Origin: Candidatus Omnitrophota bacterium
GTDB taxonomy: Bacteria; Ratteibacteria; UBA8468; B48-G9; JAFGKM01
Assembly (NCBI GenBank): GCA_023818645.1
Contig: JAMWCJ010000007.1
Location: 1-39,322, forward strand
Length of the DNA stretch: 39,322 bases
Reading direction: 5' to 3'
Part shown: positions 113 to 25,946 of the stretch, one piece after another
How positions within the stretch are numbered: position 1 is the first letter of the stretch
Layout: every line of letters begins with the position of its first letter
Position numbers and translations under genes: made by a program
Notes under the pieces: model-generated
Databases searched by the model: none
What the model was told of the DNA's origin: nothing
What the model saw: the letters and a program-made list of their open reading frames with translations, nothing else

Positions 113-185
113 AAAAATTTAATTTTCAAAGAAACTAATTTATATAATAATATATTTTTAACCAAATTTAACTAGGAGGGAAAAA

Positions 186-1553
186 ATGAATCTTATTTTT
201 ATAATGATTGATAGTTTAAGACAGGACCATGTAAGTATTTATAATAAAGGGAAGAAAGTTTTTGAAAATATTGAAAGTTGTAAAACACCAAATATAGATA
301 AGTTTAGTAAAAATTCAGTTATTTTTGACAATGTTTATCCATGCGGCCTTCCAACAATTCCTGTTAGATATGAACTTATGACTGGATTTTATTCATTACC
401 TTATAGACCATGGTGTCCCTTAACTAATTATGACTTAACAATTGCTCAGATACTAAATAGAGAAGGTTATATTTCAGGACTTATTACAGATACATATCAT
501 TACAGAAAACACGATATGAATTATCATAGAGGGTTTCATATTTATGAATGGATTAGAGGACAGGAATATGACCCATACAAAGTTCCTATAACAAAGAGAA
601 ATCTTGATGACTATTTAAATGAGAATTATCCAGAAGAGTGGAGATGGAGAGTTCTACAATTTCTTGCGAATACAGATGATATGGATGAAAAAAACTGGTT
701 TACAATGCAGGTTGTTGAGAAAAGTGTTGATTTTTTAAAGAATGCAAGAAAGACAAATAAAAGGATATTTTTGTGGATTGATTCTTTTGAACCACATGAA
801 CCTTGGGACCCACCTGAAAAATTTGATACTTATACTTCCAAAAATTATAAAGGGAAAAGATTAATTATGCCTATGGGTGGACTTGCTGAAAAATGGGCTA
901 CAAAAGAAGAGATTGATTTTATAAGAGGACTTTATGCAGGAGAAGTTAGTTTTGTTGATTATTGTTTTGGATTTTTATTTGATGAACTTGAAAGGATGAA
1001 TTTTTATGAGGATTCTTTAATTATTTTAACTGCTGACCATGGACATCCACTTTGTGACCATGGAAAATTTTTAAAAGGTTCTGATAGAATGTATAGTGAG
1101 TTATTAAAAGTCCCATTTATAATGAAATTCCCAAAAGAACTTTACAAAGGGAAAATTGATGCATTAATTCAGTTCCCTGATGTTTTGCCTACTATATTTG
1201 AAATACTTGGCTTTGAAAATAATAATATTCCACTTGCCGGAAAAAGTTTCTTTTCCATAATTAAGGGAGATAAAGATAAACATAGAAATGCTGTAATTTC
1301 TGGATACAAAAATGGTATATATAGATGTGTAAGAAATAAAGAATGGAGTTTGATTTTAACACCTGAAGATGAGGTTGACTATCTTTTCAATATCAAAGAA
1401 GACCCAAAAGAAACAAAAAATTTAATTGATAAAAACCAAGAAATTGCAAAGGAACTTCTAAAAGAATTTGGAACAGTATTTTTTGAAAAGAAAACAAAAA
1501 CTATAAAAGGAATACAGGGAGAATATGAACTTTCTTCTGCATCAATAGAATGA
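186..1553 (+). CDS. Sulfatase-family (alkaline phosphatase superfamily) hydrolase with Thr at the formylglycine position
   Basis: N-terminal MNLIFIMIDSLRQDH metal motif, PTIPVRYELMTG active-site region, FEPHEPWDPP, LTADHGHPLCDHGKF metal motif; RBS-like aggaggg upstream. Confidence 0.88.
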   Translation: MNLIFIMIDSLRQDHVSIYNKGKKVFENIESCKTPNIDKFSKNSVIFDNVYPCGLPTIPVRYELMTGFYSLPYRPWCPLTNYDLTIAQILNREGYISGLITDTYHYRKHDMNYHRGFHIYEWIRGQEYDPYKVPITKRNLDDYLNENYPEEWRWRVLQFLANTDDMDEKNWFTMQVVEKSVDFLKNARKTNKRIFLWIDSFEPHEPWDPPEKFDTYTSKNYKGKRLIMPMGGLAEKWATKEEIDFIRGLYAGEVSFVDYCFGFLFDELERMNFYEDSLIILTADHGHPLCDHGKFLKGSDRMYSELLKVPFIMKFPKELYKGKIDALIQFPDVLPTIFEILGFENNNIPLAGKSFFSIIKGDKDKHRNAVISGYKNGIYRCVRNKEWSLILTPEDEVDYLFNIKEDPKETKNLIDKNQEIAKELLKEFGTVFFEKKTKTIKGIQGEYELSSASIE

Positions 1554-2905
1554 AAAAATATAATCTTCTTTTTATTTTAATTGATGACCTTGGATGGAAA
1601 GATTTAAGTATATATGGAAGTGAATTTTATGAAACACCTAATTTAGATAAACTTGCTGAAGATGGAATTATATTTACAAATGCTTATGCATCAAGTCCTG
1701 TCTGTTCGCCAACAAGAAGTAGTATCCAAACTGGTAAATACCCTGCAAGAATTGGTATAACAAATTATATAGGCGGAAAAGATAGAGGGAAATTAAAACC
1801 ACCAGAAAACATTGAATATTTACCTTTGGAAGAAAAAACAATTGCAAGTTATCTTAAAGAATTTGGATATAAAACTTACTTTATTGGAAAATGGCATCTT
1901 GGAGAAAAACCTTTTTGGCCAGAAAATCATGGATATGATAAAAATATTGGTGGTTGTTCCTGGGGAATGCCAAAATATGGTTATTTTTCTCCTTACAAAA
2001 TACCAACATTAGAAGATGGACCAGAAGGAGAATATTTAACAGATAGATTAACACAAGAGACAATAAAAATAATAAGAGAAACAGAACAACCATTTTTCTT
2101 ATTTCTTTCCCATTATGCTGTTCATATACCAATTCAGGTTCCTGAAAGATATGTAGGAAAATATAGAGAAAAAGTAAAAAAACTTGGTCTTGATAAGTTA
2201 AATCCATTTATAGAAGGAGAGAATTTCCCATGTGAGCATAAGAAAGATTTAAAAGTTATAAGAAGAATTATTCAATCAGACCCTGTATATGCTGGAATGA
2301 TAGAAAATCTGGATGAAAATATTGGAAAGATTATAAATGTCTTAAAAGAAACAGGGAAATATGAAAATACTTTAATTATCTTTACTTCTGATAATGGTGG
2401 ACTTTCAACTGCTGAAGGCTCTCCAACTTGTAATTTACCTTTAAGAGAAGGGAAAGGATGGATTGAACAGGGAGGAATCAGGGTCTCTTTAATAATGAAG
2501 ATACCTGAAATAAATATTAAAAAATCTGATTTCCCAGTTATTTCAACTGATTTTTATCCAACAATACTTGATATCGTTGGGCTTCCAAAAATTCCTGAAC
2601 AACATAAAGATGGAATAAGTATTTTACCTGCTTTAAAAGGACAAAATATAAAAAGAAGTTTATTTTTTCACTGGCCTCACTATGGGAACCAGGGTGGAAC
2701 TCCATCTTCTGCAATTATTTATGATGGCTGGAAACTTGTTTATTCCTATGAATATGAAAAGTATTTACTTTTTAATCTAAATGAGGATATAGAAGAAAAA
2801 AAAGACCTTTTAAATAAAAATCCTAAAGAATTTAAAATCCTTAAGGAATTACTTTGGAATTATATTAAAGAGACAAATGCAAAATTACCAGAAAAGAATG
2901 GATAA
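1550..2905 (+). CDS. Sulfatase with canonical Cys-type motif
   Basis: ILIDDLGWKDLSIYG, PVCSPTRSSIQTGKYPARIG (C-x-P-x-R), FTSDNGGL; ATGA overlap with the preceding gene. Confidence 0.93.
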   Translation: MKKYNLLFILIDDLGWKDLSIYGSEFYETPNLDKLAEDGIIFTNAYASSPVCSPTRSSIQTGKYPARIGITNYIGGKDRGKLKPPENIEYLPLEEKTIASYLKEFGYKTYFIGKWHLGEKPFWPENHGYDKNIGGCSWGMPKYGYFSPYKIPTLEDGPEGEYLTDRLTQETIKIIRETEQPFFLFLSHYAVHIPIQVPERYVGKYREKVKKLGLDKLNPFIEGENFPCEHKKDLKVIRRIIQSDPVYAGMIENLDENIGKIINVLKETGKYENTLIIFTSDNGGLSTAEGSPTCNLPLREGKGWIEQGGIRVSLIMKIPEINIKKSDFPVISTDFYPTILDIVGLPKIPEQHKDGISILPALKGQNIKRSLFFHWPHYGNQGGTPSSAIIYDGWKLVYSYEYEKYLLFNLNEDIEEKKDLLNKNPKEFKILKELLWNYIKETNAKLPEKNG

Positions 2906-3995
2906 AATTGAATTATTGGTAAAACCGAGTTCCTATTTATGTAATCTTAATTGTTCTTATTGCTTTTATAAAAAAACAAAGTCAATTTATCCACAAGGTA
3001 AAATAATGGATTTAAATACTCTTGAGTTTTTTATAAAGAAATTTATGGAATATTCAGAAGGAAAAAATATATATTTTTGCTGGCAGGGCGGTGAACCACT
3101 TTTATGTGGAATTAATTTTTATTATAAAATTATTGAATTTCAGAAAAAATATGGTAAAAGTGGACAGTTTGTAGGTAATACTATACAAACAAATGGGATT
3201 TTAATAAATAAAGAATGGATTGAATTTTTTTTGAAATATAATATTTTTATTGGAATCAGTTTGGATGGTCCAGAGGAAATTCATAATTTTTACAGAAGAT
3301 ATAAAGATGGAGGGAAAACATATAAAAAAGTAATGGAAGCTATAAATCTCTTAAAAGAAAGTAATGTTCAATTTAATATTTTATCAACAATTGCAGAACA
3401 TACAGGGAAATACCCTGAAAAAATTTTCAATTTTTTTATCAATAAAAATTTTCAATATTTACAGTTTATTCCTGCAATAGATAGAAAAAACGATAAGATA
3501 AGCGATTTCTCTATAACTCCAGAAACTTATAAAGATTTTTTGATTAAGATTTTTGAACTATGGTGGAATGATGGTTCTCCCTTTATATCCATAAGGTTTT
3601 TTGATAATATACTTGAAGTTTTATCTGGATTTGAACCATCAAACTGTACACTTAAAAAGAGATGTGGAGAATATCTTGTTATAGAATATAACGGAGATAC
3701 TTATCCCTGTGATTTTTTTGTTATGCCAGATTTTAAACTTGGAAATATTTTTGAAGATGAACTTGATAAAATATATGAGAAACTGAAAAAATTTGGAGAA
3801 ATTAAGGAAATTGGGTCAGATAAATGTAAAGAATGTGAATGGAGTTTTATATGTAATAAAGGATGTTTATGGCACAGGTATGTAAAAGAAAATAGTATAA
3901 AAGGAGTTGATTATTTTTGCTCATCCTATAAAAAATTCTTTTCATACTCTATTGAAAAGTTTAAAATTATAGTAAGGAATATTTTAAAACTTTAA
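2898..3995 (+). CDS. Anaerobic sulfatase-maturating enzyme (radical SAM/SPASM)
   Basis: CNLNCSYCFY radical SAM CxxxCxxC; WQGGEPLLCG; C-terminal SPASM cysteines CTLKKRCGEYLV...CDFFV...CKECEWSFICNKGC. Start at 2898 (MDKIELLVKPSS) fits better than 2877. Confidence 0.9.
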   Translation: MDKIELLVKPSSYLCNLNCSYCFYKKTKSIYPQGKIMDLNTLEFFIKKFMEYSEGKNIYFCWQGGEPLLCGINFYYKIIEFQKKYGKSGQFVGNTIQTNGILINKEWIEFFLKYNIFIGISLDGPEEIHNFYRRYKDGGKTYKKVMEAINLLKESNVQFNILSTIAEHTGKYPEKIFNFFINKNFQYLQFIPAIDRKNDKISDFSITPETYKDFLIKIFELWWNDGSPFISIRFFDNILEVLSGFEPSNCTLKKRCGEYLVIEYNGDTYPCDFFVMPDFKLGNIFEDELDKIYEKLKKFGEIKEIGSDKCKECEWSFICNKGCLWHRYVKENSIKGVDYFCSSYKKFFSYSIEKFKIIVRNILKL

Positions 3996-3996
3996 G

Positions 3997-5115
3997 ATGG
4001 GGAAAATTGAAATTATTAAAAATTTCTCTCAAAGTAATGTATGTAATGTTGAAATAGAATATAAGGACTTACCAGTTTTAAGTTTTGCTCCCTCTCCTAA
4101 GGGTGGTCCTGAATGCCTGTGGTTTTACTTCAAAGTTAAAGTTCTAAATATAAAAAAAATAAAAATTGTACTTAAACATTCTTATAATATGCTGGGTGGA
4201 GGAATGCCAGAAAATCTAAGACCTGTTATAAAATTTAAAAATAGTGAATGGATAAGATTACCACAGCCAGAAATTATAAATTTTGATGATGGTAGAAAAT
4301 CTGTGATATGGACATTAGATATTAAAAATGATTTATTTGAAGTTGCCTTATGTTATCCTTACGGAAAAAATGAACTTGAAAAACTCTTAAAAGATACAAA
4401 TGGATACTGGAAGAAAGATGTAATTGGAGTAAGTCAGGAAGAAAGAGAAATTATAAGATTGAGTAATATTTGTAATGATAGAAGTAAAAGGGGAGTATAT
4501 TTAATATCAAGGCAACATTCTGGAGAAACTCCAGGTAGCTGGGTATTAGATGGTTTTTTGAGATATCTTGCAGAAATTAATTATAAAGATTTAGTTGTGT
4601 GGACAGTCCCTCTTTCAAATATTGATGGTGTTGAAAATGGATTTTATGGTAAGGATAATTTCCCCTATGATTTAAATCGCGCTTGGGGTTTACCTCCTAT
4701 GAGACATGAAACACTTGTTATTCAGAGAGACATTATAAGATGGAGTGAAAGATGCATCCAATTTTTAGCAATTGATTTTCATGCTCCAGGGGCTTGTGAA
4801 AAAGACGGTGCTTATTTTTATATATCTAAGATTACTGAAGATAGAAAAATACATGAAATTGAGAAGAAAATCGCTAAAAATATTTCAAAAAAAGTTGGAG
4901 ATTATATGTCAAAAGATTATGTAAGGTCAATTAATTACAAAAGCAGATGTGAAACTCCTCATTTTACAGATTTTATTAGAAAAAATTTAAAAATACCTTC
5001 CATTACACTTGAAACACCTTATAGTATCTGTAATAATATTTTAATGAAAGAAAACGATTACAGAAAAATTGGAAAAAGAATTGCCATATATTTAATAGAG
5101 GAAAATGAAAAATGA
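3997..5115 (+). CDS. M14-family-like zinc carboxypeptidase/deacylase
   Basis: SRQHSGETPGSWVLDGFL (HxxE), PLSNIDGVENG, DLNRAWG, AIDFHAPG (third His ligand), ITLETPY (candidate catalytic Glu). Confidence 0.82.
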   Translation: MGKIEIIKNFSQSNVCNVEIEYKDLPVLSFAPSPKGGPECLWFYFKVKVLNIKKIKIVLKHSYNMLGGGMPENLRPVIKFKNSEWIRLPQPEIINFDDGRKSVIWTLDIKNDLFEVALCYPYGKNELEKLLKDTNGYWKKDVIGVSQEEREIIRLSNICNDRSKRGVYLISRQHSGETPGSWVLDGFLRYLAEINYKDLVVWTVPLSNIDGVENGFYGKDNFPYDLNRAWGLPPMRHETLVIQRDIIRWSERCIQFLAIDFHAPGACEKDGAYFYISKITEDRKIHEIEKKIAKNISKKVGDYMSKDYVRSINYKSRCETPHFTDFIRKNLKIPSITLETPYSICNNILMKENDYRKIGKRIAIYLIEENEK

Positions 5116-6257
5116 AATTGGGAACTTTTAAAGAAAAACTTGAAATAAAACAAAGAAGCAGATTAATTGGTTATCCAAACACAGAGATAAGGTTTTGTAG
5201 AGGAAGCAAAGGAGACATTGAAGTAAATGGAATAATTTTAAAAGAAGATAAAAAGACAGGGTGTTTAATTTCAATTGATATACTTGGGATAAATCTTTCT
5301 TTCACTAATAAAATCAGAGAATGGATTGAGAAAAATTTTAAGATTCCTTTTGATAATATAGTTATTTCTTGTACACATACTCATTCAAGTGGAGCCAGTT
5401 TAGAAGGAAGATGGGGAAAGGATGAAATATTCTTAAATGAAATTGAAAATAAAATTAAGATTGGAGTTGAAAAAGGTTTTAATAATTTGCAAAATGTTGA
5501 ATTTGGAATTTTAAAAACAGAAGTTGATATCTCACATAATAGAAGAGTGGTTATAAATGGAAAAGGTATTAATGAGTGGCAGGATATTGATGGAAAACAT
5601 ATTGGAATTATTGATAAAGAGATAATATGTATTGGTTTTTTCAGGAAAGATGAAACTTTAAAAAGTATACTTATCAATTATTCCTGTCATCCTGTTGTTC
5701 TTGGACCTTCCAATTATTACGCCAGTGCCGACTTTGTTGGTTATCTAAGAAATTTTCTGGAAAAAAATCTTAATATTGAAAATGTTGTTTATATAACTGG
5801 CGCTTCAGGGAATATAAATCCTAAAATCTGTATAACCGATGATTTTGAAATTGCAAAAAATACAGGTGAAAAAATAGGAAATGAGATTTTAAAAAATATT
5901 AACAATTTTGAAAGGTTTTCTGCGAATGAATTTGATTTTGAAAGAAAAAAAGTTGAATTTATAAAGAAAGATAATTCTGGTATTATAGAAACAGAAATCC
6001 AGATATTAAAAATAAATAATAAAATTTTCCTAATTACTTTACCAGGAGAACCAGTTGTTGAAATAGGCCTTGAGATTAAAAATTTATCAAAATTTCGAGC
6101 AACAATTATTGCTGGCTACACAAATGACTATATTGGATATATAGCAACCAATAAAATACTTTCAGAAGGTGGTCATGAAGCAAATAGTTGTCCAGTGAAA
6201 GATGTTGAAGAAAAAATTAAAAAAGAAATTTCGGAATATATAAATGTTAAATCTTGA
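5112..6257 (+). CDS. Neutral/alkaline non-lysosomal ceramidase-like protein
   Basis: CTHTHSSGASLEGRWG and NYSCHPVVLGPSNYYASADFVGYL motifs typical of ceramidase-like N-terminal domains; ATGA overlap with the preceding gene. Confidence 0.75.
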   Translation: MKLGTFKEKLEIKQRSRLIGYPNTEIRFCRGSKGDIEVNGIILKEDKKTGCLISIDILGINLSFTNKIREWIEKNFKIPFDNIVISCTHTHSSGASLEGRWGKDEIFLNEIENKIKIGVEKGFNNLQNVEFGILKTEVDISHNRRVVINGKGINEWQDIDGKHIGIIDKEIICIGFFRKDETLKSILINYSCHPVVLGPSNYYASADFVGYLRNFLEKNLNIENVVYITGASGNINPKICITDDFEIAKNTGEKIGNEILKNINNFERFSANEFDFERKKVEFIKKDNSGIIETEIQILKINNKIFLITLPGEPVVEIGLEIKNLSKFRATIIAGYTNDYIGYIATNKILSEGGHEANSCPVKDVEEKIKKEISEYINVKS

Positions 6258-7008
6258 AACAAATATTGAAATTAAATTTATTCATTTAAGTTTTGAAAGA
6301 GGAATAGAATTGCCTCATTTTCATGAAGAAAACCAACTCCTTTTTTTCCTTTCTGGAGAAGGTGTTGAATATATTGAAAATCAAAAATATAGAATAACTC
6401 CTGGAACTTTTGTTCTAATTCCTAAAAAAATAGTCCATTTTTTTAAATCTTACTCAAAAAAACCATCTGAAATTCTTTCAATTAGATTTGATGTTTCTCA
6501 AAAGTCAGAAAATAATGAAGTGAAAGTATTTTTTAAAAAAACAAATTTTTATAAAGGGACCAGAGAGAATATAGAAGCGGTTAAAAGATTAATCCCTTCA
6601 ATAATAGATGGAAAACCAGATCTCGGACTTTTTTTTAAAATCTTCAATATGTTTTTTGAATCTTCAGAAATAAAGAAATCTTCTAAAAAAATGGGATATA
6701 TAAAAAAAATTGAGGATTATATTGAAAAAAATATAGGAAATAGAATAAAAATTGAGGAGATAGGGAAACAACTTGGACTGTCAGTTAGTTATATAAGAAA
6801 GATAATAAAAGAAGCATTTGGTGTTAGTTTTATAAAATATGTAAATATAAAAAAGATTGAATATGCCTCAAAACTTTTGATTGAAACAAAGATACCAATT
6901 TCAAATATGGCAGGACTCTGTGGGTTTTACGATTTTAATTATTTTTCAAGAGTTTTTAAAAAAATCAAAGGGGTTTCACCGAGAGAATTTAGAAAGAGTC
7001 ATTATTAA
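6244..7008 (+). CDS. AraC-family regulator with N-terminal cupin
   Basis: LPHFHEENQLLFFLSGEGVEYIEN cupin; C-terminal two-HTH region ending CGFYDFNYFSRVFKKIKGVSPREFRK; overlaps the upstream CDS. Confidence 0.92.
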   Translation: MLNLETNIEIKFIHLSFERGIELPHFHEENQLLFFLSGEGVEYIENQKYRITPGTFVLIPKKIVHFFKSYSKKPSEILSIRFDVSQKSENNEVKVFFKKTNFYKGTRENIEAVKRLIPSIIDGKPDLGLFFKIFNMFFESSEIKKSSKKMGYIKKIEDYIEKNIGNRIKIEEIGKQLGLSVSYIRKIIKEAFGVSFIKYVNIKKIEYASKLLIETKIPISNMAGLCGFYDFNYFSRVFKKIKGVSPREFRKSHY

Positions 7009-13369: not shown

Positions 13370-15214
13370 TCATCTTACAAAAAATCTTATAGTTGTTTTA
13401 GTTAAATATCCTATAATATTCCAGATACCGCCTGTTATAAATGCTCCAAGTATCAACCCATAGAAAAAATATTTTACTCTATTATAAACCTTAACACCTC
13501 CATATTTCATAATGATTATTTTAGCAACCCAGGCACAAAACACAGAAAACCAGTTACAATAAACACTCAATGGTAGTCCAAGACAAAGACCCACAGGAGA
13601 GATTGGCCACCATAAAAATCTGTTCTTCATAAATGTAAAAAATGTCATTGATAAAATCCCTCCAAATGTCCATGTAAAAAATGTTTTATTAAATCCTATA
13701 GGTTCTTTAATTGACGAAATAATATTTTTTGCTACATAATTATGGATTGAATTGAAAGGCCATGTTAAAAGATTTAAACCCCCATATTTGTAACATAACT
13801 TAATAACAAGGTATGAAGTGAAAAAGTAACTTATAAAAATTGATATTATTATAGGAAAAATCAGTTTTTTAACATTTATTTTAAACTCGTTTGCAATTTT
13901 TAAACCATTTGCTGTTGAAGCCATAACTGTTGTTCTAATATCAAATTGCCAAACATAACTTAAACATAAATTTGTTATTCCTGAAGGACCAAGATATTTT
14001 GAGCCAAAAGTATATAAAGTAGGAAGAAATCCGACTATAGGTGTGGAAAAATATGCAAGACCAGTTTGAGCAATAATCCTTGTTATTCCAAGGTAAATTA
14101 AAATTGTTATAATTAAAAAATAAACTGCTGGTAAAAATTTTAAACCCATTATCTTCAGATAAATAATTAAATATAAGAAAAAAATGAAAAATCCGATATA
14201 AGAAAATTTGTAAAGAAAATTTTCCTGCTCTTTATTTGAATTGTACATATTTTTAAATGTTTCTCTTAGATAAGTTCTTGCAAAATATATACAACTTAAA
14301 GAATAAACCAACAAACATCCGAAAGCAAAAAATGAAATTTCAATTGTTGAAGGGTCTGAAGGTATAACTGATGGACCCTTTGTAGTACCTGTTAATTTTA
14401 AAAAACCTGTTAATAATATATAAAGCAATGAAAAAAACCAGACACTCAAAAGTACATCCTTTGGCATAAAAAAAGCAACTCCAATCATTTCAAAATGGAA
14501 GAAAAGTGGTAATTTAATAACCCCTCTCATAATTGACCAAGATGGGAAAATATTTGGAGCAGGAAAGACAGGTTTAAGAGCATTTAACCCCCTCAAACTG
14601 TATACAAAAAAAGGAATAAAAAAGCCAATCCACATAACTTTATCTTTAAAGAATTTCTTTTCTCCTATCATTTTTAAAGGTAATTCAGTTAAAGGATAAG
14701 ATAATCTTTCTCTTTCAATCCATTGTTTTTTTAAAACAAAAATAATAAATATACAAAGTAAATAAAAACCTATAATGAAAGTAAACCATAAAGAAAGAAC
14801 TTTAAACCATATTCCCCATTGAATTTTCATTCCTTTTGGCAATCCTTCAAAAAAATAAGATACAATTTTTGTATCTTTTATAAAAAATTGTTCTTTTAAA
14901 TAAGGATGAATCAATTTTTCCCATTCATTTGTTGGAGTGGCAAAATAACTAATTCCTGCTATGAAAGAGATTAGATTAAGTATAAGTCCCCATGAAACTA
15001 TACTACAACTAACAATCATCATAAGATATCCAATAACAAGGTCTTCAAATGAAAAAATTTTTCTTAAGAATATTGTAATTAAAAAAAGGAAAATTATTGC
15101 AGCAGATGTGGAATAAAAATGTGAAAGGGGTGAACCATTTGCTAATAAAACACTTCCAATTTCAGAGAGGGAAATCAAAAAACAAAATATTATTCCTGTA
15201 ATTATTCCTTTCAT
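13370..15214 (-). CDS. OPT-like polytopic membrane protein (DUF6784/DUF6785 type)
   Basis: Many TM segments; ATPTNEWEKLIHP, KKQWIERERLSYPLTELP, NRFLWWPISPVGLCLGLPL, MKYGGVKVYNR. Confidence 0.78.
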   Translation of the reverse strand: MKGIITGIIFCFLISLSEIGSVLLANGSPLSHFYSTSAAIIFLFLITIFLRKIFSFEDLVIGYLMMIVSCSIVSWGLILNLISFIAGISYFATPTNEWEKLIHPYLKEQFFIKDTKIVSYFFEGLPKGMKIQWGIWFKVLSLWFTFIIGFYLLCIFIIFVLKKQWIERERLSYPLTELPLKMIGEKKFFKDKVMWIGFFIPFFVYSLRGLNALKPVFPAPNIFPSWSIMRGVIKLPLFFHFEMIGVAFFMPKDVLLSVWFFSLLYILLTGFLKLTGTTKGPSVIPSDPSTIEISFFAFGCLLVYSLSCIYFARTYLRETFKNMYNSNKEQENFLYKFSYIGFFIFFLYLIIYLKIMGLKFLPAVYFLIITILIYLGITRIIAQTGLAYFSTPIVGFLPTLYTFGSKYLGPSGITNLCLSYVWQFDIRTTVMASTANGLKIANEFKINVKKLIFPIIISIFISYFFTSYLVIKLCYKYGGLNLLTWPFNSIHNYVAKNIISSIKEPIGFNKTFFTWTFGGILSMTFFTFMKNRFLWWPISPVGLCLGLPLSVYCNWFSVFCAWVAKIIIMKYGGVKVYNRVKYFFYGLILGAFITGGIWNIIGYLTKTTIRFFVR

Positions 15215-15215
15215 C

Positions 15216-17081
15216 TTATCTTATTGTAAATTTTATTCCCTGAACCTTTGCTAAAAACGCTATAAAGTTCCAAATTCCACTTATAAAAAAAGAGCCCAGA
15301 ACCATTCCTAAGAAAAATACTTTTGCTCTATTGTAAATTTTAACTCCTCCATATTTCATAATTAATGTTTTTAAGACCCAGGCAATAAAAATTGGAAACC
15401 AATTAAAGAACACAGGAAGAGGTAAACCTATAGCAAGACCGACTGGAGAGATTGGCCACCATAAAAATCTATTCTTCAAAAACATTAAAAATATCATTAT
15501 AATTGCTCCAGAAAATGTATATAAAAATTGTTGTTTACCAAAACCAACCTGTCTTTGCATTTCAGATTTAGTATAACTTAAAACAAAATCACTTAACCTT
15601 TTAAGATGCCATGAGGATAAATTCGCTGCACCATATTTATAAGAGAAATAGATAATAACAAAACAACTAAAAACAAAACTTATAAAAATTGAAATTAAGG
15701 TTGGAATAAATGTTAATCTTAAATTTTTTATGGAATTACTACAAACTTTTACACCATTTGCATATGAACTCATGACTGTTGTTCTTATATCACCAGCCCA
15801 TATAAAACTTGTCGCAAGACCTACAATTCCTTTTTCTCCAATATGATTATAACCAAAAGTATATAATGTTGCTCCAAAAGGTATCATAGGCGCTCTATAA
15901 TATGCAAGTCCTGTTTGTGCAATAATTTTTGTAGTGGCAAAAAAAATTAAAATTATGATTATTACGAAATAAAAAGAAATGAGAAGATTTAGTCCAAATA
16001 GATTCATCCAGAAAACCATATAAATAAAAGAGATTATAAAACCCCAGAAAGCAACTCTGTAAGGTATAACTTCCTCTTTATCGTCTATATTATCTTTTTT
16101 CTTAATTGAATGTAAAAAAATATCTTTTAAATAACTCCTTGCATTAAAAAAACTACTTACTGCATAAATTATTAAAGCACCAAATGAGAAAAAAGCAAGT
16201 TGTTGAGGTGCAGGATCTGTATAAGGTATTGTATATCCTATTGTATAACCTGTAAGTTTGAAAAATCCCGTTAAAATAATATATATAAATGCAAATAACC
16301 ATACACTTAATAAAACATCTTTTGGCATCAGAAAAGAAAGTCCAATAACTTCAAAATGTAAATTTAAAGGAAAACCAAACTGTCCTCTAAAGGCAGAAAT
16401 TGATCCATATAAATTAACTTTTGGAAAAGAAGGGAAAATTAAACTTATGCCTCTCAAAGAGTAAATAAAAAATGGGATAAAAAAACCAGCCCACATTAAC
16501 CTATCTTTAATAAAATTATTTTCACTTATCAATCTTGAAGGTAGTTCAGTTAGAGGAAATAAAAGTTTTTCCTTTTCTATCCATTGTTTTCTGAAGATTG
16601 AGAATAAAAAAATAGATAAAAAGTAAAAACCAACAATAAATAAAAACCATTTAAAAAGTAAAGAAAACCAAAGTTTATAAGGTATCCCTATCCCTTCTGG
16701 TAATCCTTCATAAAAATATCTCAATGTTTCATAATCTCTTATAAATAGAAATTTTGGTAAATTTGGATGAATAAACTTATCCCATTCATTTGTTGGTGTA
16801 GAAAAATAATATATCCCTGCAATAAAACCTATTAGATTTAAAACAAATCCCCATGAAACTATTGAACAGGAGATTAAAATCATTAAATAGATTATACTTT
16901 TCTCCTGGATACTAAAGAATTTTCCAAAAAGTAAAATAAAAATGAATGTCAAAAATAATGCTCCACCTGTTGAAAAATCAGAAGCAAAAGGAGAACCATC
17001 AATGATCAAAAGAGTGAAAATTTCAAAAAAACATAATAATATGCAAAGAAATACCCCTCCTATTATTGCTTTATATTTCAT
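15216..17081 (-). CDS. OPT-like polytopic membrane protein (DUF6784/DUF6785 type), paralogue of the downstream gene
   Basis: STPTNEWDKFIHP, RKQWIEKEKLLFPLTELP, NRFLWWPISPVGLAIGLPL, MKYGGVKIYNRAK. Start assigned to MKYKAIIGG (17081) rather than the 17159 start, which overlaps the upstream gene. Confidence 0.78.
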   Translation of the reverse strand: MKYKAIIGGVFLCILLCFFEIFTLLIIDGSPFASDFSTGGALFLTFIFILLFGKFFSIQEKSIIYLMILISCSIVSWGFVLNLIGFIAGIYYFSTPTNEWDKFIHPNLPKFLFIRDYETLRYFYEGLPEGIGIPYKLWFSLLFKWFLFIVGFYFLSIFLFSIFRKQWIEKEKLLFPLTELPSRLISENNFIKDRLMWAGFFIPFFIYSLRGISLIFPSFPKVNLYGSISAFRGQFGFPLNLHFEVIGLSFLMPKDVLLSVWLFAFIYIILTGFFKLTGYTIGYTIPYTDPAPQQLAFFSFGALIIYAVSSFFNARSYLKDIFLHSIKKKDNIDDKEEVIPYRVAFWGFIISFIYMVFWMNLFGLNLLISFYFVIIIILIFFATTKIIAQTGLAYYRAPMIPFGATLYTFGYNHIGEKGIVGLATSFIWAGDIRTTVMSSYANGVKVCSNSIKNLRLTFIPTLISIFISFVFSCFVIIYFSYKYGAANLSSWHLKRLSDFVLSYTKSEMQRQVGFGKQQFLYTFSGAIIMIFLMFLKNRFLWWPISPVGLAIGLPLPVFFNWFPIFIAWVLKTLIMKYGGVKIYNRAKVFFLGMVLGSFFISGIWNFIAFLAKVQGIKFTIR

Positions 17082-17098
17082 TTTATCTAATGTTAAGA

Positions 17099-18004
17099 TT
17101 AAGGATATGACAGTGGTAACATTATTAGTTGAGGAGATATACTCCAAGGATACCACCATCTTCCATTTCTTGGATTATTTCTTCCATCTCCTTCTGTGAA
17201 AGTACCACTAAGAACTTTGTTTCTAATAGCATCATTTAAAATTAAAGGATACCATTCAACATGTCCATCACAAAACAAAACATTACCTCCATCTGCATAT
17301 AACCTAAAAAATGGATGAGCAGAATCAGGACCTAGACTTGTCGTATTAATATTCACTACATCACAGGCAATTGAAACATTAGATGGACCTATAGAAAAAG
17401 GGACACTTGAGATATCTCCAAAATTATTATAGTTATTTAGTGGACTCTTTCTCACATGAAATTTATTAGGCCCTCTTGCAATTATCATATAAATTCCATC
17501 ATCAGGAGTCCCTTTAGAGTACCAGAAAATATGTGCCCAGTTTGAAAATGCTTGAGTGCTTGGATTCCTCCTATTTCCATAATAACAATATCCTGCTTGA
17601 TACCTATTGTAAGGCATAGTTCCGGAAAGCCCAAATTGTCGTTTCCAGTCAAATACTGCATTACTTGCAATATCATAATATTTTTCTCTATTAGGGCAGA
17701 AAAAAACCTGTGCATTTTTTACATAACCTTTATCATACAGCAATCTAAAACCACCATGCCAAGTCGTCAGAAATCTGTACGAATCTGTATATGCTGGTGG
17801 ATACATTTCATTATAATCCAAAGCATATATTTCTAATGCATTGCCTATTTCTTTTAATCTTTGAACACAGAGTGCCCTTCTTGCATTTTCTCTTGCTTTT
17901 TCTAAAGCAGGTAATAACATTGCTGCAAGAATTGCTATTATTGCTATCACAACTAACAGTTCAATTAATGTGAAGCCATAACTTTTTTGAAATTTATTCC
18001 TCAT
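17099..18004 (-). CDS. Prepilin-type N-terminal cleavage/methylation domain protein with H-X9-DG-type C-terminus
   Basis: [35 protein letters not shown]-terminal [19 protein letters not shown] aaaggaggtgcaaa. Confidence 0.95.
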
Positions 18005-18021
18005 TTTGCACCTCCTTTAAA

Positions 18022-18885
18022 TTATCTCGGATTTATTAAATGTAATGCTGGATTTGTTGTACTATAAGGATAACCTGTATATACTCCAGGTTTTTTCAAT
18101 TTGTCTTCGGGTAAGATATAGTAAATTTTACTATTGCTACCAATCTTAGAAGAAGCGGCAAACCATTCTACTCTTCCATCTCCCCATATAACATTTATTC
18201 CCATTGTCTTATGATTATTCATATAATCTAATTCAAAGACATCAGATATTCCATTTGTATTTATATCATAACCAACCCTCCAAACTCCATTGCCGTCTAC
18301 AGTACTATTTGTAATATTTCTTTGCTTATCTGCGAAAAAAATCATATTATTAAAATCAACTCTTGCCTGATTAAGTCCTGTTAAAAAGTTTAAAGGAAGT
18401 CCATCACCAACATTAGGTCTTGGAAATCTGACTGCTCCATAAGCATAGGAACATTCACTATAACTATCAATTTTAAAATCTTTACCCTTTTTATCACTTC
18501 TCTGTGAAGGGCATATAAAAAGATCCATGCCCTTTACATACTCTCCAAATGTAAATCTTATTGTTCCACTTCCATCTGTTCCATAACTGCTATAAATTCT
18601 TCCTGTTAGTTTATTTAAGTAACCACCCGCTCCCCTGCCTGACCCTCCTGAGCCAGTATTGTCTGGACACCAACTTTCGTAATCTTCTACATACATTCTT
18701 AAAGTAAGATAGAGTTGTTTTAGATTATTAACACATAAAGATTGTCTTGCTTTCTCTCTTGCCTTACTTAATGCAGGCATTAACATAGAAGCAAGAATTG
18801 CAATTATAGCAATAACAACAAGCAATTCTATTAATGTGAAGCCATGTGGTTTTGGAAAGAACCTATTTAAAACCTTTTTCTTCAT
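18022..18885 (-). CDS. Prepilin-type N-terminal cleavage/methylation domain protein
   Basis: [52 protein letters not shown] aagaggaggtgtaat. Confidence 0.95.
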
Positions 18886-19969: not shown

Positions 19970-22027
19970 ATGAGAAAGGGAAAGTTCTTAATCTACAAAA
20001 AGGGGATTTATTTTGTTTCTGTTGTTTTATGGAAATGGGAAAGTTTGTCTGATGGACAACTTATTGAGGAATTAAGAAGTATAGAAAAAGCAGGATTCAA
20101 TACAGTTAGGGTTTTTTTTGATAGAAATGATATTGAAAAAGGGAATAAAAAATTTGATTGGAAAAATCCAGATAGGTTTTTCAAATGTTTAATGAAAACA
20201 AATTTATGGGCAATTGTACACCCTGGAATTAATTTAAAAAGTATAAAAAAGGAAAACCAAATTATAATATCTAAAAAAGAATATGAAAAACTGAAACATT
20301 ATCTGAAAAGATTTTTGGAAAGATATAAAGAAAATCCAAGGATAATTGCATGGATGCTTTTTGGAGAACCAGAACCTGTGAGAAAAGAGTTTATTTCTAA
20401 GGAAGAGGCAAAGTTATTTGCAAGATTTCTGAAAAAAAATTATAAAACTATAAAAAACCTTAATAAAAAATGGGGGCTTGAAAATAAACCATTCTCTCCT
20501 CATCCACCCTTAAAAGATTTTAAAGATGGTTATAAACTTACACAAATTAGATTTTGGGAAGATTACAGAATTAGAAGGGATTTGATGAGATTTCAAACAG
20601 ATATTTCAATTGAAAATCAAAAAAAGATAATAAATTTTGTTAAAAGGATTGATTCATTACGTCCTATTAGAAGTGGTGGACATAATCTTTTTTTCAATGC
20701 TGCATTATATAGATGGGACTGGGAAAAAACAGCCAATATCTGTGATATGTTTGTCTCATCAATTCATATACCATGGCATTTTGAAGAAGTTGAAGGAGAA
20801 GAAGATATACCATTATATATTCAGGCAAAAATGATAGTTGATTTTTCAACAAATGCAATTCCATGTGCTCCTGAAACAACAGGTGGTTCAAGTAGGTATA
20901 GTGGATATAGACCATTTACAATGACAGAAGAAAAGATAGAAAGATTCATTCTTTATTATCTTGCTTCAGGTTTGAAAGGATTTGGTTTTTGGTTATGGAA
21001 ACCAAGAGAAAGAGGATATGAAGGCGGTGAATATGGTATTATTGATTTAACAGGAAGATTAACAGAAGCAGGTAAAAGAGCAGGAGAAATAGCAAAATTA
21101 ATAGATAAATATGGAAAGGAACTCCTGGAACTTAAACAGAAAGTTGAAATTTATATTTTTTATAGTTGGGATAATGAAAGTTATTTAGCAAGAATAAGTG
21201 AAGGTAATATACAATTAAAACATTCTGAACATGAACTTTCTTCTTCTTATGCAAGAATTGGAATAGCAAGAGCATTAATAAATAAAAATGTTCCATTTAA
21301 GTTTCTTACCGATAATCAATTTTTAAATAATAGATTAGAATCAAAAAAAATTATTTATCTACCGTGGTTGGAATCTATATCAGAAAAAATTTTGTATAAA
21401 CTTTATCAGTATGCAAAAGATGGCGGAAGGATAATTGCTGATATGCCTTTTGCTTATTTTGACGAATATGGCAAAATTTTTGATACAAAAAACGGTTCTA
21501 TTTTTGAAAGATTATTTGGTTGTAGTATCTGTAATTTTTATCGTGTTGGAAAAATTGAAGACAGAATAAGGTACAAAGAATTTGAAATATATGAAAATGA
21601 ACAATGGGCAGAAGTATTACCAACAACAGGTAAAGTAATTGAAAAATTTGAAAATAACTATCCGTGTGTAATTGAAAATAGAATTGGTAATGGTCTTGCT
21701 AAACTTATCTGTTTTTCAATTTCAAAAATGTGTAAAAAACCTGGGAATTTAAAACTTGAAGATGAATTGATAAGGATAATTTTTAATAAAAGAAGGTTTA
21801 AGGAAAATAGTAAAGAGGTTTTACACTTTACATTATATGGTAATTCTTCTGACCATCATTTTTTGATAAATAATTCTCAGGATAATAAAGAGATTGAACT
21901 TAAATTTGAAGATGATTATAAAAAATGCCATGATCTTTTTGAAGACAAAGAAATTTATTTGAAAGATAAGGCAATTAAAATTTTGATTAAAAAAGGGAGG
22001 GGAAAATGGTTAAGGTGTTTAAAGTAA
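19970..22027 (+). CDS. Glycoside hydrolase, GH42/clan GH-A-like
   Basis: TIM-barrel style AGFNTVRVFFDRND, IIAWMLFGEPEPV (candidate acid/base), CAPETTGGSSRYSGYRP (candidate nucleophile), ASGLKGFGFWLWKPRERGYEGGEYGIIDLTGRLTEAGKRAGEIAK; Rossmann-like trimerisation region after about residue 390. Confidence 0.72.
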   Translation: MRKGKFLIYKKGIYFVSVVLWKWESLSDGQLIEELRSIEKAGFNTVRVFFDRNDIEKGNKKFDWKNPDRFFKCLMKTNLWAIVHPGINLKSIKKENQIIISKKEYEKLKHYLKRFLERYKENPRIIAWMLFGEPEPVRKEFISKEEAKLFARFLKKNYKTIKNLNKKWGLENKPFSPHPPLKDFKDGYKLTQIRFWEDYRIRRDLMRFQTDISIENQKKIINFVKRIDSLRPIRSGGHNLFFNAALYRWDWEKTANICDMFVSSIHIPWHFEEVEGEEDIPLYIQAKMIVDFSTNAIPCAPETTGGSSRYSGYRPFTMTEEKIERFILYYLASGLKGFGFWLWKPRERGYEGGEYGIIDLTGRLTEAGKRAGEIAKLIDKYGKELLELKQKVEIYIFYSWDNESYLARISEGNIQLKHSEHELSSSYARIGIARALINKNVPFKFLTDNQFLNNRLESKKIIYLPWLESISEKILYKLYQYAKDGGRIIADMPFAYFDEYGKIFDTKNGSIFERLFGCSICNFYRVGKIEDRIRYKEFEIYENEQWAEVLPTTGKVIEKFENNYPCVIENRIGNGLAKLICFSISKMCKKPGNLKLEDELIRIIFNKRRFKENSKEVLHFTLYGNSSDHHFLINNSQDNKEIELKFEDDYKKCHDLFEDKEIYLKDKAIKILIKKGRGKWLRCLK

Positions 22028-23094
22028 TTTTATTTGTTTCAACATTTTTATGTTTTTTATTAACAGGTCAGCAAAGAAGGCCTGATATTGATGAAGAAGA
22101 GTTTTCAAAATATTGGAAATTTAAAGGAGAGGTAGAGGGATTTTCTAAAAAAGAAGGAGAAAAACCTTCAACAATAAAATTTTATCTGTGGTATCCAGAT
22201 AATATAGAAGTTATAAAAGGAATAGTAATTACAGGTGGAATTTCTACAGAAGGGACTCTTTCAAGGAATGAAAAATTAAGGGCTCTTTTGACAAATAATT
22301 GTTTTGGGATACTAAAGATAAAACCAATGTTTCTCTTAAAGTCCAAAGAAGAAAAAGAAAAATTTGAAGAAATTTTAAAACAGGTATCAGAAATTTCTTC
22401 TCATCCAGAAATAATTAATTTACCCTTTCTAACAATTGGACATTCTACCGGAGGGATATATGCAAGAAATATTGGCTATTTTTATCCAGAAAGAACTCTC
22501 GGAATAATACATATAAAGAGTGGAAATTTACAGGCATACATACCAGACCCTCATTTTTCTTTAAAAGGTATACCTTTTCTTGCAATAAATGGTGAATTTG
22601 AAGAATTTGGTCCTGAAGGTGGCATAAGAGCAAAATATGGAAGACAAACTCAATGGATTATGATTAGAAAACAGTTATTATATTTAAGGGATAAAGATGA
22701 AAACCATCTTTTCTCATTACTTGTACATCCAGGTGGGTCTCATACTTCATGGAATGATGAGATGACTGAATATGTGATAAAGTTTATAAGTAAGTGTATT
22801 GAAAATAGATATCCAGAAAAATTTGACCCATTAAAAGAAAGTGTTAAATGTAAAAAGATAGATTTAAAAAAAGGATATCTAACAGATGCAAATATAAAAT
22901 CTCCTGAGTTTCTCCCTTCATCTCATTCAGAATATAAAGGAGATAAGAACAAAACTTTCTGGCATTTTGATAAAGAAATGGCAGAACTTACTTATGAAAT
23001 ACATAAAAGATTGACACCAGATGACCCAAGTCAAAAAGATGAGAATTGGTGGGAGTTAAATGATACAGTTTTAATTCCAAAGTATTTATGGTAA
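22006..23094 (+). CDS. Secreted alpha/beta hydrolase
   Basis: Signal peptide; GIVITGGIS, LTIGHSTGGIYARNIG (nucleophile elbow), HPGGSHTSW (candidate catalytic His). Confidence 0.7.
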   Translation: MVKVFKVILFVSTFLCFLLTGQQRRPDIDEEEFSKYWKFKGEVEGFSKKEGEKPSTIKFYLWYPDNIEVIKGIVITGGISTEGTLSRNEKLRALLTNNCFGILKIKPMFLLKSKEEKEKFEEILKQVSEISSHPEIINLPFLTIGHSTGGIYARNIGYFYPERTLGIIHIKSGNLQAYIPDPHFSLKGIPFLAINGEFEEFGPEGGIRAKYGRQTQWIMIRKQLLYLRDKDENHLFSLLVHPGGSHTSWNDEMTEYVIKFISKCIENRYPEKFDPLKESVKCKKIDLKKGYLTDANIKSPEFLPSSHSEYKGDKNKTFWHFDKEMAELTYEIHKRLTPDDPSQKDENWWELNDTVLIPKYLW

Positions 23095-23108
23095 AAGGAG
23101 GAGGAGAT

Positions 23109-25946
23109 ATGAAAAAAATTTTTTATCTTATTTTTATTTGCTTGTCTGCAAATTTATTTTCAATGTTAGAATTTACAATAAAAAATCCTGTAAAAAATAC
23201 TTATTCTTCTGCTTATGTTAAAGCACCTTTAGAATTTAAGAATATAGAGGAGATAGAAATTGTTGATGAGAATGGTAAAGTTATTTTATACCAATTTGAA
23301 AAAGATTTTAAGATGAATGTTTATAATTTATGGATTTTTGATGATTTCCCAGCAGATACAGAAAAAAGATATAAGGTGTTTAATAGGAAAAGTAAGATGG
23401 AGAAAAAGATAGGGATAAAGAGAGAGAAAGATTTTATTGAGGTAGAGAATAATTATACTGGTATAAGAATCCCTTTAAAAGTTTATAAAAATGATGGACC
23501 GATTAAAGAAATAATGGTAAATAGAAAATGGATAGGAGAGAGTTTTTGGAAAGAAGAAATAGAAAGTTATAATTTAGAAATTTTATGTGAAGGACCTCTT
23601 TTCTTTAAATCGAGGCAAATATATGGATTTAAAGAAGGTAGTTTTTCTGAAATATTGATTACCTTTTTCTCTGAAAAGCCCTATATTATTGTTGAAGAGA
23701 TACATAAAAACAATGAGAAAAATTACTGGGAGTTAAATTTATGGAAGAGATGGAAAATAGAGGAAGGATATATACAAGGATGGTTTACAACAGAAGCAGA
23801 AAATGTAGGATCTTCTCCACATCCTCCAGTTATACAGAATAGTAAATTTACTGCACCTTTCCTTTATGAAAAATTAAGGAAAGTTGTCATTCCATCTTCT
23901 TTTAGATTAGGAGATACTATTACTTACTTAGAGCCGAGATGGACACAAAATTGTGAAAAATCTTGGTTTTTTGGTTTTTCAGATGGAGAATATTTTGTAG
24001 GCATTATACCTGCAAAGGCTGGAAAGTGGATTTATCCATATAGTAATTCAATAGAGGTAAAAGTTAATGAGAAAAAGGAAGGTAAATTCATATTTCCGTC
24101 TTTTGAAGGTTCAAGATATTATTATATTATTGTTAATGATAATAAAAACCTTGAAAATCTGAAAAATTTTACCCAATATGAAGTTTTAACACCATTAAAT
24201 GAAATTCTGGATAAATATGTTATTGAATGGGAAAATAAAAAGGGAAACTTTGAGCCATTATTCTATTATTCTGATTGGATTGCAAATCCTACCAATCCTG
24301 GGACAAGACATAAAGGCAGAAATCTTGTTTCAGATATTAGAAAAGGGAAATTCCCATCAGAAGATATTAATACTCTTTCCCTTTTTCAACAATATATAGA
24401 CCCTGATTTTTGGGGTTATCCTTACAATGGCTGGTCTCCTTTAAATCCAAACTTTTACACAGATCTTGTCAGAATACCTATTGCTTTATTAACAGGCCTT
24501 AAGTCACACCCTCATTATTCTGCTTTTGTTGAGCATATTAAGAAACTTCTTGATTATCATCTTTCTGCTTCAATTATTCAACCTAAAGGAGCAGGAGTAG
24601 AATGTCCAGGATATTTATGGCATGCACTCGGTGTCTTTATTGATATGAATGATGCATGTATCCATCATGGTATTGATTTAACAAAAGATGAGAGAATAAA
24701 ATCTGCGATATCTTTTCTTTTAAGAACAACTCAACCAATGGGAAATGGGAAGAGGAAGATTTTACCAATGGGAGATACACATCCACCAGGAGTTGATTTT
24801 GAAACAATCAATGAGATTGGATTAAAATTAGGTATTAATGAAGACCCTAAAAATTGGAAAACAGAAGAATTTCCAGGATTTGGGATAGTTTTTAGGAATA
24901 AATCTGGTACTGAAAAAGAAACTTTTTTTGCTTTTAAATCTGGTCCAACAAGAGGACATTATCATGGAGACCAACTTGCATTTCACTATTGTGCTTATAA
25001 TAAAAGAATTGCAATAGACCATATGTGCGGTTATGCTCCAAGAGCAGATCAAGAACATATGCATAATAGAGTTTTTTTTAGTTTACCTGATTGGAAATTC
25101 GCAAATATGGATGGATATGAAAGAGTAATAGGATTTAAAACATCAAAAGAGGTTGATATAGGCATAGGACAGATTGAAAGTAAAAGATTAAGATGGATGC
25201 CTGATTTACCTGAAAAGATTGTTTGGCAGGCAAAATATCCAGTTAAATTTTATCAAGAGCCAATAATTTACAGAAGATATGTAATATTTATTAAAAGTGA
25301 AAAAGAAGATGTTTTGGACTATTTTATTATATGGGATAGATTTGAACTCCCATCCGATGAAATAATTCCAAATTATGCGCTCCATATTGAAACATCAAAC
25401 GATTTTATTAAGGAAAAGGAATACTTTAGATTTGATGAAAAACTCTTTCTTTTTGTCCTTAGTCCTTTATTATTTGATTTTGAGAGATTTAACTGGAAAT
25501 TTGAAAGAAAAAGAAAAGATGGGTCAATTTATTATAGTGAAGAAACAAAAGGACTATTTATAAGGTCTTCTGAAAAAAATAAAAAAGAATTTATAACCCT
25601 CCTATACCCTTCAACTAATAATATTCCTATTGCAAACTTCAATGCAAATGAAAGAAAATTAAAAATAAGTTTTAAAAATTCAAGTTATGAGATCAACTTT
25701 GGTAAAGATTTATTGAAAACAAATAATAAGTCAAAAAATTTAATTTTATTAATAAAGAAAGATGGTAAAGAGATCCTGAATTTATTGGAAGAGGATATAG
25801 ATTTAGAAAGAAGTCAGGGACAATGGTTTTATCCTGTTCTTGAAGCAGGATATAATTTTAACGACGAAGTAGGTTTTTTAAAGAAATATATAAATTTTAT
25901 TCTGGGAGAAGAATTTTATAATTTGAAAAAAAAGATAATAAGATGA
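23109..25946 (+). CDS. Heparinase II/III-like polysaccharide lyase candidate
   Basis: Signal peptide MKKIFYLIFICLSANLFS; FFAFKSGPTRGHYHGDQLAFHYCAYNKRIAIDHMCGYAPRADQEHMHNRV; RBS aaaggaggaggagat; MKK start chosen over the 23088 start. Confidence 0.72.
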   Translation: MKKIFYLIFICLSANLFSMLEFTIKNPVKNTYSSAYVKAPLEFKNIEEIEIVDENGKVILYQFEKDFKMNVYNLWIFDDFPADTEKRYKVFNRKSKMEKKIGIKREKDFIEVENNYTGIRIPLKVYKNDGPIKEIMVNRKWIGESFWKEEIESYNLEILCEGPLFFKSRQIYGFKEGSFSEILITFFSEKPYIIVEEIHKNNEKNYWELNLWKRWKIEEGYIQGWFTTEAENVGSSPHPPVIQNSKFTAPFLYEKLRKVVIPSSFRLGDTITYLEPRWTQNCEKSWFFGFSDGEYFVGIIPAKAGKWIYPYSNSIEVKVNEKKEGKFIFPSFEGSRYYYIIVNDNKNLENLKNFTQYEVLTPLNEILDKYVIEWENKKGNFEPLFYYSDWIANPTNPGTRHKGRNLVSDIRKGKFPSEDINTLSLFQQYIDPDFWGYPYNGWSPLNPNFYTDLVRIPIALLTGLKSHPHYSAFVEHIKKLLDYHLSASIIQPKGAGVECPGYLWHALGVFIDMNDACIHHGIDLTKDERIKSAISFLLRTTQPMGNGKRKILPMGDTHPPGVDFETINEIGLKLGINEDPKNWKTEEFPGFGIVFRNKSGTEKETFFAFKSGPTRGHYHGDQLAFHYCAYNKRIAIDHMCGYAPRADQEHMHNRVFFSLPDWKFANMDGYERVIGFKTSKEVDIGIGQIESKRLRWMPDLPEKIVWQAKYPVKFYQEPIIYRRYVIFIKSEKEDVLDYFIIWDRFELPSDEIIPNYALHIETSNDFIKEKEYFRFDEKLFLFVLSPLLFDFERFNWKFERKRKDGSIYYSEETKGLFIRSSEKNKKEFITLLYPSTNNIPIANFNANERKLKISFKNSSYEINFGKDLLKTNNKSKNLILLIKKDGKEILNLLEEDIDLERSQGQWFYPVLEAGYNFNDEVGFLKKYINFILGEEFYNLKKKIIR

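Follow-up and report, generated by a model that had tools for sequence, protein, structure and literature searches.

The window, that is, the whole stretch of DNA analysed (39,322 nucleotides from a Candidatus Omnitrophota bacterium), has near its left end an ORF of 455 aa (positions 186..1553, + strand) that encodes a sulfatase-fold (PF00884) protein of Thr type, here called P0001. The ORF starts with ATG and is preceded, 5 bases upstream, by the ribosome-binding site AGGAGGG (174..180, +). It opens a tight gene run on the + strand. The second gene (1550..2905), which shares 4 bases (ATGA) with the Thr gene, encodes an S1_16-like S1 sulfatase of Cys type (C52-S-P-T-R, GKWH), with 6ust (E 1.5e-147) and the S1_16 enzyme 9fo1 (E 7.8e-107) as close matches. 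Then follow the genes for an anaerobic sulfatase maturase (anSME, 2877..3995; TIGR03942, 387 bits, cut-off 349), an M14-type zinc carboxypeptidase-like protein (3997..5115), a weak match to the neutral ceramidase N-domain (5112..6257) and, at the end of the run, a cupin and AraC-type regulator (6244..7008). Elsewhere in the window are two tandem genes for DUF6785/DUF6784 proteins (13370-17159, -), an adjacent pair of pseudopilin-like genes (N_methyl and DUF1559; 17099-18885, -) and, after a GH42-like gene, three consecutive ORFs of 362, 952 and 984 aa (22006-28897, +), which had no confident Pfam match and are possibly carbohydrate enzymes.

Pfam search matched P0001 to PF00884 (E = 1.3e-35), with an SGSH_C tail (4.6e-13), and none of the NCBIfam models scored at or above its cut-off. 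The first core strand (MNLIFIMIDSLRQDH) opens the protein directly at the N terminus; no apparent signal peptide or transmembrane helix was found, nor any strongly hydrophobic 19-residue window.

The sequence L-P-T57-I-P-V-R61 (348..368, +) replaces the (C/S)-x-P-x-R motif of sulfatases, and the codon of the putative nucleophile, Thr57, is ACA (354-356). In 5 of the 5 HMM alignments to solved sulfatases listed, Thr57 was aligned on the Cys/Ser of (C/S)xPxR. Codon, alignments and orthologs thus agree with the initial annotation, which had placed Thr at the formylglycine (FGly) position, and the alternative Cys or Ser there that it had named as counterevidence was not found in the alignments. 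It had also taken both metal motifs to be intact. D9 and D284-H285 are indeed present, but motif 1 (MIDSLRQDH) is not fully sulfatase-like, as the metal Asp is followed by Ser (D9-S10, 210..215, +) where FGly-sulfatases have Asp or Gln. The putative metal ligands D284-H285 (TADHGH; 1035..1040, +) are arranged as in LtaS and in phosphonate monoester hydrolases (PMHs), whose equivalent residues we take to be Asp324/His325. H204 of the PHxP motif (795..797, +) and K297 (1074..1076, +) are equivalent to His211 and Lys375 of PAS, respectively, and both are invariant in the Thr clade described below. The position of the active-site Lys (LysA) of 'GKxH', matching Lys113 in PAS and Lys101 in SpAS1, is occupied by D102 (489..491, +). 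For HisA, MAFFT favoured Y104; profile alignment to 4upl placed H105 there.

The AlphaFold2 model of P0001 had a mean pLDDT of 89.8 and a pTM of 0.91, with Thr57 predicted as the first residue (N-cap) of helix 57-66. When the model was compared with the PDB by Foldseek, the best 50 matches were all sulfatases and PMHs, and the top TM-scores were those of RlPMH (2vqr, 0.75), SpAS2 (4upl, 0.75) and EfAS (9koq, 0.74). The predicted structure of P0001 fits the sulfatase/PMH group.

LPTIPVR is conserved in orthologs of 47-88% identity, their Thr being encoded by ACA, ACT or ACC; a frameshift or an error of sequencing or assembly was ruled out on the grounds that the motif is kept with differing Thr codons. 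The host genome (1.97 Mb, 152 contigs) carries two further Thr paralogs, L002 (TIPSR) and L003 (TVPNR), and beside them five Cys-type PF00884 sulfatase genes. The DNA pattern [L/F]PT-x-P-x-R-(x4)-TG had nearly 60 matching sites, spread over 36 of the 386 genomes sampled; its reversed control gave 9 sites, and a few of the nearly 60 look fortuitous. This spread, together with the fact that Thr at this site of PF00884 was noted in 2016 (see below), does not support the rarity implied by the initial annotation.

Phylogenetic analysis of 88 PF00884 proteins brought together 35 Thr proteins that have T-x-P-x-R, joined only by the Cys protein L025 (LPCMPAR) at the unresolved base (SH-aLRT 98); constraint of the 35 as one clade was not rejected (AU p 0.72). 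Although pairwise identity within this clade is 21-87%, residues T57, P59, R61, G67, W76, H204, W207, D284, H285 and K297 are invariant (35/35), as is D9, one truncated row apart. The residue after D9 is Ser or Thr in 34/34 members, compared with Asp or Gln in 34/41 of the Cys-type S1 proteins sampled, and the LysA position holds Asp (32/35) or Ser (3/35), compared with Lys in 33/41 Cys members. W76 is invariant in the Thr clade only (L025 has it too), and W207 is rare in Cys members (4/41). P0001 carries the full signature, namely T-x-P-x-R, Ser/Thr after D9, W76, H204, W207, D284-H285 and K297. Because the catalytic residues are kept in 35/35 members down to 21% identity, the active site is considered to be under selection, and the coupled residue changes across sequences this divergent indicate that the site works, but differently.

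Three further forms were observed around this clade. L025 (841-2628, -; G056:C3) is a Cys protein (SLPCMPARRELHTGR) that bears marks of the Thr clade, namely a Ser next to the metal Asp, W76 and an Asp in the LysA position, but has Tyr at the W207 position; it is possibly an intermediate between Cys and Thr types. L114 (269-1699, +; G032:C162) is a Thr protein (EIPSTTGARRC) that lies next to L120 inside the Cys clade and represents a separate Cys-to-Thr change in which the Pro was lost too. There is also a second Thr group without the Arg, T-x-P-x-[HYFV].

Pairing of the Thr gene with sulfatase and anSME genes was found in the window, in L037 and in L038/L042, all very close relatives within the window's genus. 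Around the orthologs in three other genera (G007, G017 and G031), no sulfatase or anSME was present in the stretch seen, and the neighbours were unrelated; functional coupling as a general rule was rejected, since it is not kept there. The proposal that P0001 works beside a canonical sulfatase holds for the window and its genus, but not for the stretches seen in the three others. On the scale of genomes, anSME was detected in 13/19 Thr-carrying genomes and in 3/42 others (Fisher p 1.6e-6, with kinship ignored), and shared use of sulfated glycans is the simplest reason for this co-occurrence. In the draft genome G007 (81% complete), the Thr ortholog was the sole PF00884 gene found, and neither an anSME above cut-off nor an FGE was detected; this would fit independence from a maturase, but a draft of 81% completeness does not prove that none is present.

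With FGly-dependent S1 sulfatases (SulfAtlas S1; PF00884) P0001 shares the fold, D9, the xPxR frame and the positions of H204, D284/H285 and K297, and it differs from them in having Thr for the Cys/Ser that begins the motif, no Asp/Gln after D9, and Asp for LysA. The RlPMH/BcPMH and SpAS/EfAS group is closest in predicted structure (TM 0.72-0.75) and likewise has His second in the D-H metal pair; the LysA position of PMHs is not Lys either. Unlike P0001, PMHs use FGly; in them a Gln follows the first metal Asp (here Ser10), LysA is Tyr (here Asp102) and HisA is Thr or Asp. LtaS, EptA/MCR and YejM have the same fold and a Thr nucleophile on one divalent metal, the arrangement proposed here for P0001. 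These enzymes are, in contrast, membrane-anchored and extracytoplasmic, with phospholipid head groups or LPS as substrates, and the T-x-P-x-R frame of P0001 is not reported for them in the relevant part of PMC7576196. The LtaS metal ligands corresponding to D284/H285 are Asp475/His476.

From these results, P0001 is most probably (a probability of roughly 60%) an FGly-independent, soluble cytosolic hydrolase or transferase of the sulfatase/PMH branch within the alkaline phosphatase superfamily, acting on phosphoesters, probably phosphodiesters, with a Thr nucleophile; the number of metals, the catalysis, the preference for phosphate and the substrate are what we infer. This reading is preferred because Thr-nucleophile, single-metal enzymes of the same fold act on phosphate esters, namely LtaS (with Mn), EptA/MCR-1 and YejM, a Mg-dependent phosphatase, as described in a section of PMC7576196; because the FGly aldehyde is not obtainable from Thr, as stated in a passage of PMC5066984; and because LysA and HisA matter, being the two positions at which arylsulfatases and PMHs differ (PMC5488252) and at which mutation of K110/H112 in EfAS abolishes or nearly abolishes activity (PMC12421950). 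Thr57, as the N-cap residue of the catalytic helix, would coordinate one divalent metal together with D9, D284 and H285. The ester would be bound by R61, H204 and K297, and Thr57 would attack the P atom or, less likely, the S atom. The covalent Thr ester so formed would then be cleaved by water or, in a transferase, by an acceptor, possibly with help from D102. The likeliest substrate would be a phosphodiester or a phospho- or phosphono-substituted sugar or head group rather than a sulfate ester, and P0001 would need no sulfatase maturase. The suggestion of the initial annotation that the protein may be phosphodiesterase- or phosphatase-like, with a Thr nucleophile and no FGly, is supported. 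Against the preferred reading, the overlap of the Thr gene with the sulfatase gene fits a role in sulfated-glycan use too, anSME is commoner in Thr-carrying genomes, and it is not obvious how the negative charge of D102 near the ester would favour an anionic substrate.

The gene overlap and the anSME association would suit a true sulfatase with an unmodified Thr, which forms a sulfo-Thr intermediate, activates water by D102 or H105 and has sulfated sugars as its substrates, alongside the S1_16-like sulfatase. The sulfate-site residues R61, H204 and K297 are all retained, the association with anSME is strong and was seen also in 11/16 Thr-positive handles, and Cys-to-Ser mutants of sulfatases retain about a tenth of kcat/KM (PMC5488252). 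We nevertheless regard such an enzyme as unlikely: LysA, needed in EfAS, is Asp here, no sulfatase gene adjoins the orthologs of the three other genera within the stretch seen, and the literature search gave no sulfatase whose nucleophile is a plain hydroxyl. Equally doubtful is the broader proposal that the Thr clade forms an enzyme class widespread among sulfated-glycan degraders, in which an unmodified Thr attacks sulfate esters with the aid of Asp102, the conserved residue that stands in for the sulfatase Lys. If true, the sulfatase fold would have a second way of splitting sulfate esters, one that needs no maturase.

That P0001 is a pseudo-sulfatase devoid of catalysis, retained for regulation or binding, is still less probable. 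Loss of both the FGly precursor and LysA is what a dead sulfatase should display, but the metal ligands, Thr, Arg, His and Lys are invariant in 35 divergent members (with the above exception for D9), and new clade-specific active-site residues arose, which decay would not give. Membership of the NPP/type I phosphodiesterase family (PF01663) with its two-zinc site, to which the initial annotation had likened the Thr, was rejected and is considered very improbable. Only the Thr nucleophile matches; there is also a weak PF01663 match, with the best stretch at 252-290, and the N-terminal strand-helix region aligns. No NPP occurred, however, among the best 50 Foldseek matches, and in the profile comparison with two NPP-type proteins the match was confined to the N-terminal 72 columns. 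That alignment does not reach the second-metal site of NPP (D-x3-H and a C-terminal His); by eye, no Asp/His pair was seen in the PHEPW stretch of P0001 where NPP has D-x3-H, and second-metal ligands of the NPP kind were not found there. The two NPP-type proteins, which keep seven candidate two-metal ligands (D11, T50, D351, H355, D410, H411 and H551), are encoded at two loci by genes that directly adjoin Thr-type PF00884 genes (L037 2948-4930, +; L047 8694-10634, +) and are 36% identical. Oxidation of Thr57 by the linked anSME to a ketone, with the ketone hydrate replacing FGly as the nucleophile, is scarcely credible. Within the tight run, the anSME gene does lie two places after the Thr gene; the intervening Cys sulfatase accounts for it, however, and G007 has the Thr gene with no anSME or FGE detected. 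Oxidation of Thr would yield a ketone, a modification that, according to PMC5066984, has never been demonstrated.

The Thr substitution as such is already on record. In the section of Barbeyron et al. 2016 on the Pfam profile (PMC5066984), Thr is reported at this site in 30/59 PF00884 seed sequences, where it replaces Cys/Ser as in P0001, and the profile is therefore said to mislabel proteins as sulfatases; Thr-type members are mentioned there only to exclude them from the sulfatases, and that section does not describe the T-x-P-x-R clade or its coupled residues. No characterised T-x-P-x-R member was found in the literature search. The coupled residue signature is the main addition of this study. 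Pfam scores proteins of the Thr clade as 'sulfatase', and genome surveys probably count them so, yet they lack the FGly-forming residue. Annotators can set the clade apart by its signature of Thr, Ser/Thr after D9, Asp at LysA, W76 and W207, and the clade provides the alkaline phosphatase superfamily with a clear test case in which the nucleophile and the active-site Lys change together.
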